From contig MKRV01000265.1 of NCBI GenBank assembly GCA_001897995.1, forward strand, positions 47,804-111,803: a stretch of DNA of 64,000 nt. The letters are read 5' to 3'. The notes under the pieces are model-generated. The model had not been told where the DNA came from. It ran no database searches and was given only the letters and a program-made list of their open reading frames with translations. Source of the DNA: Alphaproteobacteria bacterium 65-37. GTDB taxonomy: Bacteria > Pseudomonadota > Alphaproteobacteria > Reyranellales > Reyranellaceae. Made by a program: the position numbers and the translations under genes. Of the stretch, positions 23,923 to 51,975 are shown in pieces (the first letter of the stretch is position 1; each line of letters opens with the position of its first letter).

Positions 23923-25074
23923 TCACGCGCGGCGCCACGCCTTGAGCCGGCGTACCGCGTCCTCCATCTCGGCCATCGAGCCGGCGAAAGAGATGCGCAG
24001 TGTCCCCGCTCCCCGGGCCCGGTCGAAATCGACACCGGGCGTCGTGGCCACGCCCGCCTCGCGCAGCATGCGTCGGCAAAACTCGCGGCTGTCGTTGGTC
24101 AAGTGGGAGACGTCGGCGTAGAGGTAGAAGGCGCCCTGCGCCGGCGTCAGCCGATCGAGCCCGGCCGACGGCAGACCGGCCATCAGAAGATCGCGGTTGG
24201 CACGGTAACGGCGGACATGACCGTCGAGCTCATCGCGGCATTCGAAGGAAGCGAGCGCAGCATACTGGCTGAGCGTCGGCACCGAGATGAAGAAATTCTG
24301 GGTGAGCCGCTCGATCGGGCGGACCAGATCGGGCGGCACGACCAGCCAGCCGACACGCCAGCCGGTCATGGAAAAGTACTTGGAGAAGCTGTTCACGACG
24401 ATCGCATTGTCAGTGACTCCGACGGCCGATGCCGTTTCTCCCTCGTAGACGATGCCGTGATAGATCTCGTCCGAAATCAATCGCACGCCGCGACGATTGC
24501 ACCAATCAGCCAGGCTCCGGAGCTCGTCGTGACTGACCATGGTACCGGTCGGGTTGGACGGACTGGCGACGATCAACCCGTCGATCCGCCCTGCCTTTTC
24601 CAGCGCCTCGACCGTCGGCTGATAGCGGTCGGCCGCCGACGTCGGCAGGTCGACAGCCTCGAGATTCAACGCCGCCAGGATGTTGCGATAGGCAGGATAG
24701 CCTGGCGCCGCGAGCGCCACGCGGTCCCCGACATCGAAGCTCGCCAGGAAGGCCAGCGGAAAGCCGCCCGACGAGCCGGTCGTGACGACCACGCGGTCGG
24801 GCGAAACTTCGGTGCCGTAGGTTTCGCGATAGTGCTGCGCAATGCGCTCGCGCAGCGCCGGCACGCCGAGCGCCGCCGCGTAGCCGATGCGATCGGTGTC
24901 GAGTGCCGCGTGCGCCGCCGCCAGAGCGCCCTTGGGTGCCGGTGTGCTGGGCTGGCCGACTTCGAGATGGATAACCGTGTCGCCCGCGGCCTCCTTCTCA
25001 GCCGCCGCCGCCATCACGTCCATGACAATGAAAGGATCGACACCGCTCGCACGGCGCGACAGCTTGCCCGACAT
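23923..25074 (-). CDS. Class I/II pyridoxal-phosphate aminotransferase
   Basis: VIHLEVGQPSTPAPKGALAAAHAAL, SPSNPTGTMVSHDELRSL, NSFSKYFSMTGWRVGWLVVP. Confidence 0.95.
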   Translation of the reverse strand: MSGKLSRRASGVDPFIVMDVMAAAAEKEAAGDTVIHLEVGQPSTPAPKGALAAAHAALDTDRIGYAAALGVPALRERIAQHYRETYGTEVSPDRVVVTTGSSGGFPLAFLASFDVGDRVALAAPGYPAYRNILAALNLEAVDLPTSAADRYQPTVEALEKAGRIDGLIVASPSNPTGTMVSHDELRSLADWCNRRGVRLISDEIYHGIVYEGETASAVGVTDNAIVVNSFSKYFSMTGWRVGWLVVPPDLVRPIERLTQNFFISVPTLSQYAALASFECRDELDGHVRRYRANRDLLMAGLPSAGLDRLTPAQGAFYLYADVSHLTNDSREFCRRMLREAGVATTPGVDFDRARGAGTLRISFAGSMAEMEDAVRRLKAWRRA

Positions 25075-36950: not shown

Positions 36951-37117
36951 GTATCAACCACGTTGTCGTATGTGACCGCGCCGCTTGTACGCGGGCGATT
37001 GATCGTGCGCAACGCGACGTCAACGGCACGTGATTCACATCGTTCGTCGTCATGCGAATCACGCGATTCGAGCAACTGTTGCGCGCTTGCATCATCTAGT
37101 ACCATCAACATGGTGGT

Positions 37118-37152
37118 CTACAAAATATAGTTGCGCACACAAGATTTTGTAA
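37118..37152. promoter_or_regulatory. Possible tandem NrdR-box-like sequences upstream of nrdJ
   Basis: CTACAAAATATAGTTG (37118-37133) and ACACAAGATTTTGTAA (37137-37152); resemble NrdR consensus but spacing (19 bp centre to centre) is not the usual ~31. Confidence 0.3.
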
Positions 37153-37251
37153 TTTACTATCAGGACGTGCCCATATGTGCGTGTTCGAAAGTGATCGAAC
37201 ACTCCCCGCAAGAGACACGGAAATGACGGGAACGGGCACGGGGGATCGTCG

Positions 37252-40200
37252 ATGCGCTTTGAGCGTCGGTATACGCAAGCAGGAAAATCGCCATTCGAAG
37301 GGGTGGCGTTTCGTGCTGCCGATTCCGAAATCCGTAACCCCGACGGATCGCTCGTCTTCCAGTTGAAGGGTGTGGACGTCCCCGCCGAGTGGTCGCAGGT
37401 CGCCGCCGACGTTCTTGCCCAGAAGTACTTCCGTCGTGCCGGTGTGCCCGCGCGCACGATGCACGTCACCGAATTGGACGTGCCCGACTGGCTGTGGCGT
37501 TCGGTGCCCGACGAAGCCGCCCTCGCCCAATTGCCGGCGGCCGAGCGCTACGGCAGCGAAATGAGCGCGCGGCAAGTTTTCCATCGCATGGCCGGTGCCT
37601 GGACCTATTGGGGGTGGAAGGGCGGCTACTTCGACAGCGAAGCCGATGCGCGTTCGTTCTACGACGAGCATTGCTACATGCTGGCGGCGCAATTCTGCGC
37701 GCCCAATTCGCCGCAGTGGTTCAATACCGGACTGCATTGGGCTTACGGCATCGATGGCCCCGGCCAAGGTCACTGGTACGTCGACCATCGCGACGGCGTG
37801 GCCCGTCGCTCCGACTCCGCCTATGAGCGGCCGCAGCCGCATGCCTGCTTTATCCAGAGCGTCTCCGACGACTTGGTGAGCGACGGCGGGATCATGGACC
37901 TCTGGGTTCGTGAAGCACGCCTCTTCAAGTACGGCTCCGGCACCGGCTCCAACTTCTCCAAGGTGCGCGCGAACGGCGAACGGCTGTCGGGTGGCGGCAA
38001 GTCTTCCGGCTTGATGTCCTTCCTCAAGATCGGCGATCGCGCAGCCGGCGCCATCAAGTCCGGCGGCACCACGCGGCGCGCCGCCAAGATGGTGACGGTC
38101 GATATCGACCATCCCGATATCGAGGAATTCATCGCCTGGAAAATGCTCGAGGAGCAGAAGGTGGCCGCTCTGGTCGCCGGCTCCCGGCTGGCCAATCGGC
38201 ATCTCAATGCGGTCATGAAGGCCTGCCTCGACACCGGCATTGCCGGTGATGGTGCTTTCGACCCGAGGCAGAATGCCAAGCTGCGGCGCGAGATCGTCGC
38301 GGCCCGTCAGGCCGAGCTGCCGGAGAACTACATCCAGCGTGTCATCCAGTTCGCACGCCAAGGCTACCGCCATATCGACTTCCCGACCTTCGACGTCGAC
38401 TGGGAATCGGAGGCCTACACCTCTGTCTCGGGGCAGAACGCCAACAACTCGGTCCGGGTCACCGACGCTTTCCTTCAGGCCGTCGAAGCCGATCGGCAAT
38501 GGGCTCTGACCGAACGCACGACCGGCAAGGTAGCCCGCACTGTCGGTGCCCGCGCCTTGTGGGACCAGATCGCCGAAGCAGCCTGGCACTCCGCCGACCC
38601 CGGTCTGCAGTACGACACCACGATCAACGACTGGCACACCTGCCCCGAGTCGGGCCGCATCAATGCGTCGAATCCCTGCTCCGAGTACATGTTCCTCGAC
38701 GATACGGCGTGCAACCTCGCCTCGCTGAACCTGATGCGGTTCCGCCGGCAGGATGGCTCGATCGATGTCGGCTCTCTGGAGCATGCCAGCCGCCTGTGGA
38801 CGGTCGTGCTCGAGATTTCGGTGATGATGGCGCAGTACCCGTCGCGCCGGATCGCCGAACTCTCCTTCGAATACCGGACCCTGGGCCTGGGCTATGCCAA
38901 TCTCGGCGCCGTTCTGATGGCATCGGGCCTGGGTTACGACAGCGCCAAGGGCCGTGCCATCGCCGCGGCGCTGACGGCCATCATGACGGGGACGGCTTAC
39001 GCCACCTCGGCCGAGATGGCGGCCCTGATGGGCCCCTTCCCCGGCTTCGACGCCAATCGCGAGGCGATGCTGCGCGTCATCCGCAATCATCGCCGGGCGG
39101 CCGACGGCGCCCGCGGCGGTTACGAGAGCCTTTCAACCCTGCCCATCGCCCTGGACGCCGCCAACTGCCCCGACGAGCGCCTGGTCGCGGCCGCCCGCCA
39201 TGCCTGGGATCGCGCCCTGGAACTCGGTGAACGGCACGGTTTCCGCAATGCCCAGGTCTCGGTGATCGCTCCGACCGGCACGATCGGCCTGGTGATGGAC
39301 TGCGACACGACCGGCATCGAGCCGGATTTCTCGCTGGTGAAATTCAAGAAGCTGGCAGGCGGCGGCTATTTCAAGATCATCAATCAGACGGTGCCGCTGG
39401 CCTTGCGTACCCTGGGCTACAGCGACGCAGCCATCGACCGGATCGTCGCCCATGCCGTCGGTCATGGGTCACTGGCGACGGCACCGGGCATCAATCACGC
39501 GACCCTGGCGGCCCGCGGATTCGACGCGGCGGCGTTGCAGCGGGTCGACCAGGCCGTCGCCACTGCCTTCGACATCCGCTTCGCCTTCAACCGCTACACG
39601 CTGGGTGACGCCTTCTGCCGCGACGTCCTCGGCTTCGACGACGCAGCACTGGGCGATGCGAGCCTCGACATCCTCGCAAGCCTCGGCTTCTCCAAGAGCG
39701 ACATCGCTGCCGCCAACATCCACGCATGTGGAACGATGAGCATCGAAGGTGCTCGCGATCTTCGTCGAGAGCATCTCGCGGTGTTCGATTGTGCGAATCC
39801 CTGTGGACGAGATGGCAAGCGCTGCTTGTCTGCGGAGAGTCACATACGCATGATGGCTGCAGCCCAGCCGTTCGTATCGGGCGCCATCTCCAAGACCATC
39901 AACATGCCCAACGCAGCTACGGTCGAGGATTGCCGCAAGGCCTATGAGATGTCGTGGAAGCTTGGACTGAAAGCCAACGCGCTCTATCGCGATGGTTCCA
40001 AGCTCTCGCAGCCGTTGTCCGCCATGCTCCTCGGCGACGACCTTGCCGCCAACGACGATCTCGCCGACATGTCGCCGGCAGCGCGTGCGCCGGTCATCGC
40101 CGAACGGATCGTGGAACGCATCGTCGAGCGTGAAGTCCGCGCCGGCCGCGAGCGCCTGCCGCAGCGCCGCAAGGGCTACACCCAGAAAGCCATCGTCGGC

Positions 40201-40947
40201 GGACACAAGGTCTACCTGCGCACGGGCGAGTACGAGGACGGCCGGGTCGGCGAGATCTTCGTCGACATGCACAAGGAAGGCGCCGCCTTCCGCAGCCTGA
40301 TGAACAACTTCGCCATCGCGATCTCGATCGGCCTGCAGTACGGCGTGCCGCTCGAGGAGTTCGTCGAGGCCTATACTTTCACGCGCTTCGAGCCTTCGGG
40401 ACTGGTCGACGGCAACGACGCGATCAAGATGTCGACCTCGGTGCTCGACTACATCTTCCGCGAGCTCGCCATCTCCTATCTCGGACGCAACGACCTGTCG
40501 CATGTCGAGCAGGCCGACCTTCGGCCCGACGGCGTCGGTCGCGGCGAGGTGCAGGGCGAACTGCCCGCTCCCGGCACGGATGCCGCCGAAGCTGCGGCCG
40601 CCGCGGTGAGCCGCATCGCCAGCGTCGGTTACATGCGCAGCAACCTTTACGTATTGAATGGCCGGACGGCCGGCAATGTCGCGATCGCCAACGAAGCGAT
40701 CGCGGCCGGCCCCCTGCCCAACGGACTGACGGACGGCCCAGCCGTCGCTACGGCGCACATCGCCAAGGCGGCCGTCGTCGGCGTCGCGCGCGGAGAAGCA
40801 TCCTCCTCGCCCTCGGGTCTCGCCTTCGAGGCGAAGCTCAAAGGGTACGAAGGGGATGCCTGTCCGGAATGCGGCAACTTCACGATGGTCCGCAACGGGA
40901 CGTGCCTCAAATGCACGACCTGCGGCGGGACCACCGGATGCAGTTGA
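37252..40947 (+). CDS. nrdJ: Vitamin B12-dependent (class II) ribonucleotide reductase
   Basis: [71 protein letters not shown]-terminal [28 protein letters not shown]. Confidence 0.97.
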
Positions 40948-41025
40948 GCATGCGTGGCGTAGCGTACCAGCGTACCCCGGGGGCCTCACGGTTGGGGACC
41001 TCATAGCTAACCATAGGAGACAGTT

Positions 41026-41082
41026 ATGGCTGCTAAGAAGAAGGCTGCTAAGAAGAAGGCTGCTAAGAAGAAGAAGCAGTAA
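41026..41082 (+). CDS. 18-aa lysine-rich mini-protein MAAKKKAAKKKAAKKKKQ
   Basis: ATG preceded by ATAGGAGACAGTT (AGGAG RBS); histone H1/AlgP-like KKAA repeat; too short for ORF track. Confidence 0.6.
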   Translation: MAAKKKAAKKKAAKKKKQ

Positions 41083-41084
41083 AT

Positions 41085-41283
41085 AGGTAAGGGCGTAGGC
41101 CAAAGTTTACTTTGGCCCCTCTAACCAACGCCTTTCGGCTTCCGTGTGGGTGCCCCTCTCGGGCCCCACCGGAAGCCACCTTACAGAAGACGAGCAATAA
41201 GCCGATCCGACGCCTTGGTTCGCCGAGGCGGAAAGGCGAAACTAGATAAAGCGTCCGGCGACCCAGGTCTGCCGGACTTTTTT
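41085..41283 (+). ncRNA. Candidate structured RNA / long structured 3' region ending in intrinsic terminator
   Basis: GTAAGG/CCTTAC closing helix; GGCCAAAG-TTTA-CTTTGGCC hairpin; GGCTTCCG..CGGAAGCC ~17-bp hairpin; CGCCTTGG-TTCG-CCGAGGCG hairpin; terminator. Confidence 0.55.
41253..41283 (+). terminator. Rho-independent terminator
   Basis: GTCCGGC-gacccaggtct-GCCGGAC followed by TTTTTT. Confidence 0.9.
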
Positions 41284-41365
41284 CTTGTGCACTGGATCGC
41301 AGTGCGAGGGAAAACGCCGTCTCTATTCGCCCTTGTCCTGGCATGATTCGCGCTATGCTGTAGCC

Positions 41366-49769: not shown

Positions 49770-51086
49770 TCAGCTGCGGGGGCCAGGGCGGCCTACACCT
49801 TCGTAGGCGAAGCCCATGCCCCGCATCTCCTCGGGATCAAAAGCATTGCGCAAATCGACAATACGCGGTTGGCGCATCAGTTCCTTCAGGCGGCGCGGAT
49901 CCAGGCCGCGGAATTCATGCCATTCGGTGATCAGCACCAGGACATCAGCGTCGGCCACCGCGTCGTACGCCGTCTTGGCGAATTCGATGTTCGTGAGCAG
50001 GCGGCCGGCCTCGGCCATGCCCTCGGGGTCGAATGCCACGATCCTGGCGCCAGCCGCCTGCAGCGCCGGGACGATGTCGAGTGACGGCGCATCGCGCATG
50101 TCGTCGGTATTGGGCTTGAAAGTAAGGCCCAGAACGCCGATGCGCAGCCCCTTCACGGAGCCGCCGCAGAAGGCGATGACCTTGTCGGCCATCCGCTTCT
50201 TGCGCGCATCGTTCACGGCGATCACCTGCTCGACGATCGTCTGTGGTGCATCGACCTCGCGTGCGGTGTAGGCGAGCGCCAGCGTATCCTTGGGAAAGCA
50301 CGACCCGCCGAAGCCCGGGCCGGGATGCAAGAACTTCCGGCCGATGCGCCCATCCAGGCCGATTCCCCGGGCAACATCGTGGACGTCCGCGCCGACCTTC
50401 TCGCAAAGATCGGCGATCTCGTTGATGAAGGTGATCTTGGTCGCCAGAAACGCGTTTCCGGCGTACTTCGTGACTTCGGCGGTTTCGATGTTGGTGAAGA
50501 CCATCGGCGTCTGGATCAGGTTCAACGGCCGATAGATGGCGGCCATCACCTCGCGGGCTCGTGTGCTCTCGACGCCGATCACGACGCGGTCGGGCTTCAT
50601 GAAATCCTCGATCGCCGCACCTTCGCGCAGGAACTCGGGATTGGAGGCCACGTCGAATTCGACTCCCGGCCGCGTCTCGCGAATGATACGCGCGACTTCA
50701 CGACCGGTGCCGACCGGCACCGTCGATTTGGTGACGACGACCGTATACTTGTCGAGCGCGCCCGCGACCTCCGCCGCAGCGGCATAAACGTAACTCAGAT
50801 CGGCATGGCCGTCGCCGCGCCGGGTCGGCGTTCCGACGGCGATGAAGACGGCATCGGCGTCGCCGACGGCATCCTGCAGACTGGTTCCAAAGGACAGCCG
50901 GCCGGCTCGCACATTGTCGGCCACCAGCTTGTCGAGACCAGGCTCATAGATCGGAATCTCGCCCTTGCGCAGCCGTTCGATCTTGGCCGCTTCCTTGTCC
51001 ACACAGACGACGTCGTGGCCGAATTGAGCAAAACAGGCGCCTGACACCAGCCCGACATAACCCGACCCGATCATCGCAATGCGCAT
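49770..51086 (-). CDS. ugd: UDP-glucose 6-dehydrogenase
   Basis: MRIAMIGSGYVGLVSGACFAQFGHDVVCVDK, SNPEFLREGAAIEDFMKPDRVVIG, HPGPGFGGSCFPKDTLAL. Confidence 0.97.
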   Translation of the reverse strand: MRIAMIGSGYVGLVSGACFAQFGHDVVCVDKEAAKIERLRKGEIPIYEPGLDKLVADNVRAGRLSFGTSLQDAVGDADAVFIAVGTPTRRGDGHADLSYVYAAAAEVAGALDKYTVVVTKSTVPVGTGREVARIIRETRPGVEFDVASNPEFLREGAAIEDFMKPDRVVIGVESTRAREVMAAIYRPLNLIQTPMVFTNIETAEVTKYAGNAFLATKITFINEIADLCEKVGADVHDVARGIGLDGRIGRKFLHPGPGFGGSCFPKDTLALAYTAREVDAPQTIVEQVIAVNDARKKRMADKVIAFCGGSVKGLRIGVLGLTFKPNTDDMRDAPSLDIVPALQAAGARIVAFDPEGMAEAGRLLTNIEFAKTAYDAVADADVLVLITEWHEFRGLDPRRLKELMRQPRIVDLRNAFDPEEMRGMGFAYEGVGRPGPRS

Positions 51087-51090
51087 GGCG

Positions 51091-51975
51091 TCAGCCCTTC
51101 ACCAGGCGTTCAATGAGGGCGCGACTCTCGGCCTTCGTATCTTCGCGGTCGAGGGAGATCGCCACATTGGCTTCGAGGAAGCCGAGACGGTTGCCGCAAT
51201 CGTAGCGCCTGCCGGTGTAGCGCAGCGCATGAAACGGCGTGTCGCCGATCATCTTCGCCATGGCATCGGTAAGCTGGATCTCTCCGCCGGCGCCGGTCTC
51301 GTGCTTGTCGAGATGGTCGAACACTTCCGGCAGCAATACGTAGCGTCCGATCAAGGCCAGAGTTGACGGTGCGTCCTCAGGCTTCGGCTTCTCGACCATT
51401 CCGGTGATCTCGGCGAGCCCGCCCTTCTCGTCCTTCACCGCCGCGATGCCGTAGCTCTTGGTCTGTTCGCGCGGGACATCCATCACCGCGACGACACTGC
51501 CGCCGGTCTTGTCGTGCGCCATGGCGAGCTGACCGATGCAGCTCGGTGTATCGAGTGTCAGCTCATCGGGCAGCAGCACGGCAAAAGGTTCGCGACCAAT
51601 CCAATGCCGGGCGCACCAGACCGCATGTCCGAGGCCGAGCGGCTTTTGCTGGCGTGTGAAGATGGCATTGCCGGGTTTGATGGTGGCAGCCTGCGTCTGC
51701 TTCAGCTCCGGCGCCTTCTTGCGCTGCTCGAGCGTCGCTTCCAGTTCGTAGGCATGGTCGAAATGGTCTTCGAGGGCGCCCTTGTTGCGGCCGGAAACGA
51801 AGACGAACTCGTCGATACCGGCCTGCAGACACTCCTCGACGGCGTACTGGATCAACGGCCGGTCGACCACGGTCAGCATTTCCTTCGGCATGGCCTTGGT
51901 GGCCGGCAGAAATCGGGTTCCCAGACCCGCGACGGGCAGAACGGCTTTACGGACACGCTGAACCATGCTTACCAA
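51091..51975 (-). CDS. galU: UTP--glucose-1-phosphate uridylyltransferase
   Basis: VRKAVLPVAGLGTRFLPATKAMPKEMLTVVDRPLIQYAVEECLQAGI, GLGHAVWCARHWIGREPFAVLLPDEL. Confidence 0.97.
   Translation of the reverse strand: MVSMVQRVRKAVLPVAGLGTRFLPATKAMPKEMLTVVDRPLIQYAVEECLQAGIDEFVFVSGRNKGALEDHFDHAYELEATLEQRKKAPELKQTQAATIKPGNAIFTRQQKPLGLGHAVWCARHWIGREPFAVLLPDELTLDTPSCIGQLAMAHDKTGGSVVAVMDVPREQTKSYGIAAVKDEKGGLAEITGMVEKPKPEDAPSTLALIGRYVLLPEVFDHLDKHETGAGGEIQLTDAMAKMIGDTPFHALRYTGRRYDCGNRLGFLEANVAISLDREDTKAESRALIERLVKG

Follow-up and report, generated by a model that had tools for sequence, protein, structure and literature searches.

The window analysed here is a stretch of 64,000 nucleotides from Alphaproteobacteria bacterium 65-37, a member of the Reyranellaceae. 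It carries nrdJ, which encodes a class II ribonucleotide reductase, followed on the 3' side by a mini-ORF as the next feature and then by an RNA region (41080-41283) that starts about 130 nt past the nrdJ stop and ends in an intrinsic terminator. The features of the locus, all on the plus strand, are listed below.

37252-40947, plus strand: nrdJ, class II (vitamin B12-dependent) ribonucleotide reductase, 1231 aa (Pfam PF02867, PF08471, PF12637)
41015-41019, plus strand: Shine-Dalgarno sequence AGGAG of the mini-ORF, inside the near-invariant block CCATAGGAGACAGTYATGGCTGC (alignment of 35 relatives)
41026-41082, plus strand: mini-ORF encoding MAAKKKAAKKKAAKKKKQ, with codon-level constraint
41083-41283, plus strand: region of structured RNA, running from the stop of the mini-ORF to the T-run of the terminator (fold z, covariance-model matches, double changes)
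41089-41095, plus strand: AAGGGCG, 5' strand of a local helix with CGCCUUU (98% of cells pair in 24 relatives)
41098-41117, plus strand: hairpin 1, GGCCAAAG-UUUA-CUUUGGCC (compensatory changes, best covarying pairs)
41116-41125, plus strand: conserved loop or seed CCCCUCUAAC, complementary to a second RNA, kept across genera while the flanking stem is rebuilt
41129-41135, plus strand: CGCCUUU, strand common to two mutually exclusive helices (alignment, predicted ensemble)
41137-41177, plus strand: hairpin 2, GGCUUCCG...CGGAAGCC (double changes in 13 of 15 pairs)
41211-41230, plus strand: hairpin 3, UUCG-capped (double changes in 5 of 5 modelled pairs)
41232-41238, plus strand: AAAGGCG, 3' strand of a distal closing helix with 41129-41135 (predicted ensemble, most Reyranella sequences)
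41253-41283, plus strand: intrinsic terminator GTCCGGC...GCCGGAC with six Ts, kept in all aligned Reyranella sequences

An initial annotation of this DNA had described the upstream mini-ORF, hairpin 1 (GGCCAAAG-TTTA-CTTTGGCC), hairpin 2, the UUCG hairpin (CGCCTTGG-TTCG-CCGAGGCG) and the terminator with its six Ts, and each was recovered at the positions given above. The terminator is evident in the sequence and in the alignment; it went unflagged by a simple terminator scanner, probably because its loop is longer than the scanner's limit. A pattern scan with the E. coli-type consensus only found no sigma-70-like promoter between nrdJ and the mini-ORF, which weakly suggests that the mini-ORF and the RNA are co-transcribed with nrdJ. 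In the gap between the two genes (40948-41010) the motif GCGTA recurs alongside a GTACCC/CCCGGG block, recognisable in the family and in its sister family. Two long open frames on the minus strand opposite nrdJ (37105-39090, 661 aa; 39469-41103, 544 aa) are most likely shadow frames of GC-rich coding sequence. The gene after the RNA was TetR-like in 31 and FemAB-like in 21 of the 55 loci compared, and neither in the remaining 3 (strand calls in this count were automatic).

The mini-ORF and the structured RNA

The mini-ORF encodes a polycationic Lys/Ala repeat of 18 aa in Reyranella, and of 20-22 aa in most other genera and in the sister family. Parsimony reconstruction gave 29 synonymous and 10 nonsynonymous changes, where 22% synonymous would be expected under neutrality. 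Codon position 3 took 31 of the 39 changes, six of the 10 nonsynonymous changes fell at the last codon, and the pN/pS-like ratio was 0.10. By these comparisons the mini-ORF is a real coding gene under purifying selection and, given this constraint and the near-invariant Shine-Dalgarno block, it is very likely translated. The suggestion of a dual-function sRNA/peptide, made when the locus was first read, therefore has good grounds as far as sequence goes. One genus (locus L050, genome G061) carries a further Lys/Ala-rich ORF (MAAKKKAAKKAVKKAVKKVAAKAAP...) behind the first; its leader is similar and likewise rich in GCGTA, which suggests that it arose by duplication.

The predicted fold of 41060-41300 has a free energy of -110.9 kcal/mol, against -78.3 +/- 4.8 kcal/mol for shuffled sequences (z = -6.9), and none of 200 shuffles was as good. 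Compensatory changes in homologues, which had been proposed as a check, are abundant. Standard pairs fill 97.4% of the pair cells among 71 distinct sequences, and double changes occur in 32 of 41 pairs against 11.6 in shuffles, in an alignment that was fitted to the model and so favours the signal. Sliding the helix partners abolishes the pairing signal. Under a tree-based null 4 of the 41 pairs are significant, and pairs of the structure make up 10 of the 30 top covarying column pairs. The best covarying pairs lie in hairpin 1, with exchanges of the kinds C-G/U-A/G-C and A-U/G-C, and the hairpin 2 sequence GCUUCC..GGAAGC is common to Reyranella and other genera.

No Rfam 15 family matched the window at its gathering score; the best sub-threshold matches (E = 0.23 and 2.6) were both on the opposite strand, and homologues in other genera gave no Rfam match either. 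Known RNA families are thereby ruled out for 41080-41283, in agreement with the earlier judgement that it does not resemble RNase P RNA, tmRNA, 6S or SRP RNA. With its compensatory changes and family-wide occurrence, the proposal of a novel structured RNA of about 200 nt stands.

One element of the proposed layout did not hold up. For the closing helix GTAAGG/CCTTAC (41087-41092 with 41179-41184), 84% of cells pair in 24 relatives, there are no double changes and there is no excess over shuffles, so that it was discarded. The conserved closing element is instead CGCCUUU, which pairs either with the upstream AAGGGCG (local helix) or with the downstream AAAGGCG (distal helix). These two helices are mutually exclusive and both are nearly universal in Reyranella. 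The strands of the local helix are almost invariant among the 24 relatives, and energy models prefer the distal helix in most Reyranella sequences. In the other genera examined the local helix alone is evident, without the distal one; two of these genera have a local hairpin, GAUUGGC-CCCUCUAACUGAU-GCCAAUC, immediately before hairpin 2.

The loop core UUGGCCCCUCUAAC persists between genera while its stem partner switches side, being upstream of it in Reyranella but downstream of it in the other genera. We read this as selection acting on the loop sequence, as expected of a base-pairing seed. The seed is looped out in the other genera; for many Reyranella sequences the predicted ensemble of the monomer has part of CCUCU paired. 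By eye, the seed can also be paired with a block, GGTTGGGG, upstream of the mini-ORF in Reyranella and one more genus, but not in the others.

Distribution in the family and the class

By DNA similarity, the RNA element was found in 36 of 36 relatives of the same genus, 76-95% identical, and it follows nrdJ wherever the flank could be read. It is single-copy in the Reyranella relatives apart from two partial or fragmented cases, one at a contig break (G027) and one fused to nrdJ (G033). At the latter (L051, G033:C51 ~50950-51110) the end of nrdJ runs straight into the middle part of the RNA, and the mini-ORF and hairpin 1 are lacking; this is a true deletion or else a join made by the assembly at a short repeat. 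Among named records, the leader block occurs in Reyranella, in Enhydrobacter aerosaccus and in metagenome bins under various labels.

A covariance model (R1) was built from 32 sequences. In 45-kb searches it matched at the corresponding place in the family's other genera with 21-34 bits (E <= 2e-4), and with 86 bits in one genus. In a class-wide scan it detected the RNA in 4 of 289 genomes, all of them Reyranellaceae, and in none of the 285 sampled genomes outside the family, with filters strict enough that weak relatives can be lost. The C-terminal domain of nrdJ was detected in 76 of 76 genomes of the order. In the sister family (L040) the mini-ORF is retained after nrdJ and the RNA part is different; no mini-ORF was seen after nrdJ in 28 other alphaproteobacterial loci.

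The nrdJ 3' regions of the class show a separate regularity. Many unrelated alphaproteobacteria carry UCCUCCCUG(A)ACUUGGGG immediately before the post-nrdJ terminator, within the first ~100 nt after the nrdJ stop (L069, L070, L072, L073, L080, L085, L086, L160, L161, L165 and L176). TCCTCC is present in 16 of 66 nrdJ 3' regions; shuffled sequences gave 3.2 and the opposite strand 2. The 20 scanned nrdJ 3' loci gave no Rfam match. The motif resembles the core UUUCCUCCCU of the alphaR8 RNAs considered below, and may mark a class-wide sRNA of the nrdJ 3' UTR.

A complementary locus between ymdB and yebC

Three Reyranella genomes were searched for the loop complement GTTAGAGGGG, and each contains it 2-4 times with the element itself counted. 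The sole other site common to all three lies just before a terminator in the gap between ymdB and yebC, genes named here from reading their ORFs and not from a profile search. No mRNA target with the full complement is shared: beyond the ymdB-yebC gap there were two sites, in one of the three genomes. The locus lies outside the window:

L198 1610-1440 (minus strand); G000:C158 ~24190-24410: second sRNA-like locus, between ymdB and yebC, structured and family-wide

It comprises a conserved TTGACG box, a hairpin, GGUUAGAGGGGG and a terminator, with two terminators in tandem. Within the order, 73 of 76 genomes show conservation of the ymdB-yebC gap; it folds with z = -6.0 and has no Rfam match. 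The segment GTTAGAGGGGG before the terminator is invariant in 51 aligned family sequences, even though between genera the locus has diverged in its 5' half. In the class-wide sample, the genomes with a 19-nt core of this locus are the very 4 of 289 in which the nrdJ-linked RNA was detected.

The predicted duplex places the seed CCCCUCUAAC opposite GUUAGAGGGG of the ymdB-yebC RNA. It spans 10-13 bp in 37 of 38 genomes, and its predicted energy beats all 2280 background segments. The nrdJ-linked RNA accordingly combines a conserved seed with a conserved complement elsewhere, as looked for in a trans-acting sRNA. Since the ymdB-yebC site is invariant, there is almost no two-sided covariation across the duplex, the one instance being a change from C-G to U-A at a flanking position; the loop changes in G001, G002, G005, G028, G096, G098 and G090 cost at least one duplex pair. 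We count the complementary site as real evidence because it was predicted from the loop before being inspected, and not as proof because the partner hardly varies.

Interpretation and comparison with known systems

The explanation we favour, at somewhat better than even chances, is that nrdJ is linked to a transcript of the 3'-UTR type which would act as both sRNA and peptide message, and whose conserved sRNA partner would be its sponge or its target through base pairing at CCCCUCUAAC. The 3' end of this Reyranellaceae transcript encodes the Lys/Ala peptide of 18-22 aa, as its codon-level constraint shows, and finishes as the structured, terminated RNA of ~200 nt, as conservation and compensatory changes show. 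As a 3'-UTR-type or independent sRNA, this RNA most likely pairs through its loop with the sRNA-like transcript upstream of yebC, in which GGUUAGAGGGGG before the terminator provides the perfect complement. The two RNAs would then titrate or destabilise each other as a sponge-type pair, so that regulation would run by titration or joint decay. More speculatively, the peptide may be an RNA-binding one, with its own transcript among the RNAs bound. An extension of this idea, in which the peptide binds its own 3' RNA, shifts it between the local and distal folds, hides or exposes CCCCUCUAAC and so tunes the sponge pairing, coupling B12-dependent nucleotide reduction to a second regulon, strikes us as unlikely.

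The main rival is a structured 3' UTR and terminator of an nrdJ-mini-ORF mRNA, serving exonuclease protection and termination, with the peptide as the sole relevant product and no action in trans. Function could indeed reside in the conserved leader and the Lys/Ala ORF, with the RNA as no more than a 3' end that gives stability; the lack of an E. coli-type sigma-70 promoter in the gap, the strong coding constraint and the survival of the mini-ORF beside a different RNA in the sister family (L040) all fit this. A plain stabiliser, however, needs neither a loop conserved independently of the stems that present it nor an invariant complement of that loop in another conserved locus of equally narrow distribution, and we regard this rival as possible and distinctly less probable than a pairing RNA. 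The roles might also be reversed, the yebC-side RNA being the active regulator and the nrdJ-mini-ORF transcript its mRNA target, so that GGUUAGAGGGGG would bind the 3' UTR of the mini-ORF and control expression of nrdJ or the peptide. The same pairing evidence (invariance of GTTAGAGGGGG, duplex span and duplex energy) serves this arrangement equally, and the yebC-side locus has the anatomy of an sRNA, with its TTGACG box, hairpin, GGUUAGAGGGGG and terminator. Sequence cannot tell the direction of regulation, but the nrdJ-linked RNA is structured and terminated beyond the needs of a simple target site, and such a reversal appears improbable.

We also doubt, a little more strongly, that the locus acts in cis on the next gene, with the mini-ORF as an attenuator leader peptide or the RNA as a riboswitch. 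A peptide ORF and a terminator are both there, and AAGGGCG, CGCCUUU and AAAGGCG permit two exclusive helices, each in nearly all Reyranella sequences, that could form the switch. Against this, the next gene is not fixed but TetR-like or FemAB-like, the other genera examined show the local helix alone, the strands of that helix hardly vary so that its pairing is little tested, and there is no overlap between the terminator stem and the alternative helices. Lastly, CCCCTCTAAC/GTTAGAGGGG could be an element of the DNA, for instance a site bound by a protein, that stands in opposite orientation at the two loci by chance. The motif is rare and conserved at both, but it lies in each case within a transcript-like structured region before a terminator, and the loop variants CUGAC, UCCCUCU and CCUUUUAAC retain RNA pairing via G-U while the other locus is unchanged, which makes this reading very improbable.

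The family thus has two uncatalogued RNAs whose conserved segments complement each other perfectly, along with a coding mini-gene for a polycation of 18-22 aa. A literature search found no sRNA study of Reyranellaceae. If the pairing is real, a pairing RNA at nrdJ would represent a second alphaproteobacterial sRNA-sponge system, independent of alphaR8/CrfA and tied to a class II ribonucleotide reductase gene.

In Caulobacter, CrfA sponges SisA-D (alphaR8) via their UUUCCUCCCU core, and alphaR8 usually adjoins the gene of FGase, N-formyl glutamate amidohydrolase (PMC12559287). The pair described here is similar in being two alphaproteobacterial ncRNAs with a C/U-rich seed facing a complementary G/A-rich stretch, and in its intrinsic terminator (PMC12559287). 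It differs in its seed, CCCCUCUAAC, in its nrdJ linkage, mini-ORF and one-family distribution, and in that the interaction is predicted from sequence. The alphaR8 core UUUCCUCCCU is absent from the nrdJ-linked RNA, whose conserved core is UUGGCCCCUCUAAC, and no FGase gene adjoins it, its neighbours being nrdJ upstream and a FemAB-like or TetR-like gene downstream. At the CIN1 locus of Rhodobacter, CcaF1, a 71-aa DUF1127 RNA-binding protein, is co-transcribed with four CcsR sRNAs, RNase E processing being a further mark of that locus (PMC10253847), and the order of a small protein gene, then sRNA and Rho-independent terminator is shared (PMC10253847). Here, however, an 18-22 aa Lys/Ala peptide precedes one RNA, and the ORF upstream of it is an 18-aa Lys/Ala repeat and not a DUF1127 protein. 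Membership of alphaR8 and of CIN1 was rejected on the defining core, location or protein.

Further parallels are more distant. SmelA075 and SmelA099 of Rhizobiales are multi-hairpin anti-SD sRNAs that repeat CCUCCUCCC in three or four loops (PMC3927594); in them too a C/U loop motif is conserved while the sequences of its stems have diverged (PMC3927594), but the nrdJ-linked RNA has a single CCCCUCUAAC. SR1/SR1P of Bacillus is a dual-function sRNA, which acts by base pairing and at the same time encodes a small protein (PMC8501984); it is unrelated in sequence, structure and host, and for our locus the dual function is one that we infer. On the best reading of these comparisons, the nrdJ-linked transcript would work like CrfA-SisA and CcaF1-CcsR while being a member of neither.
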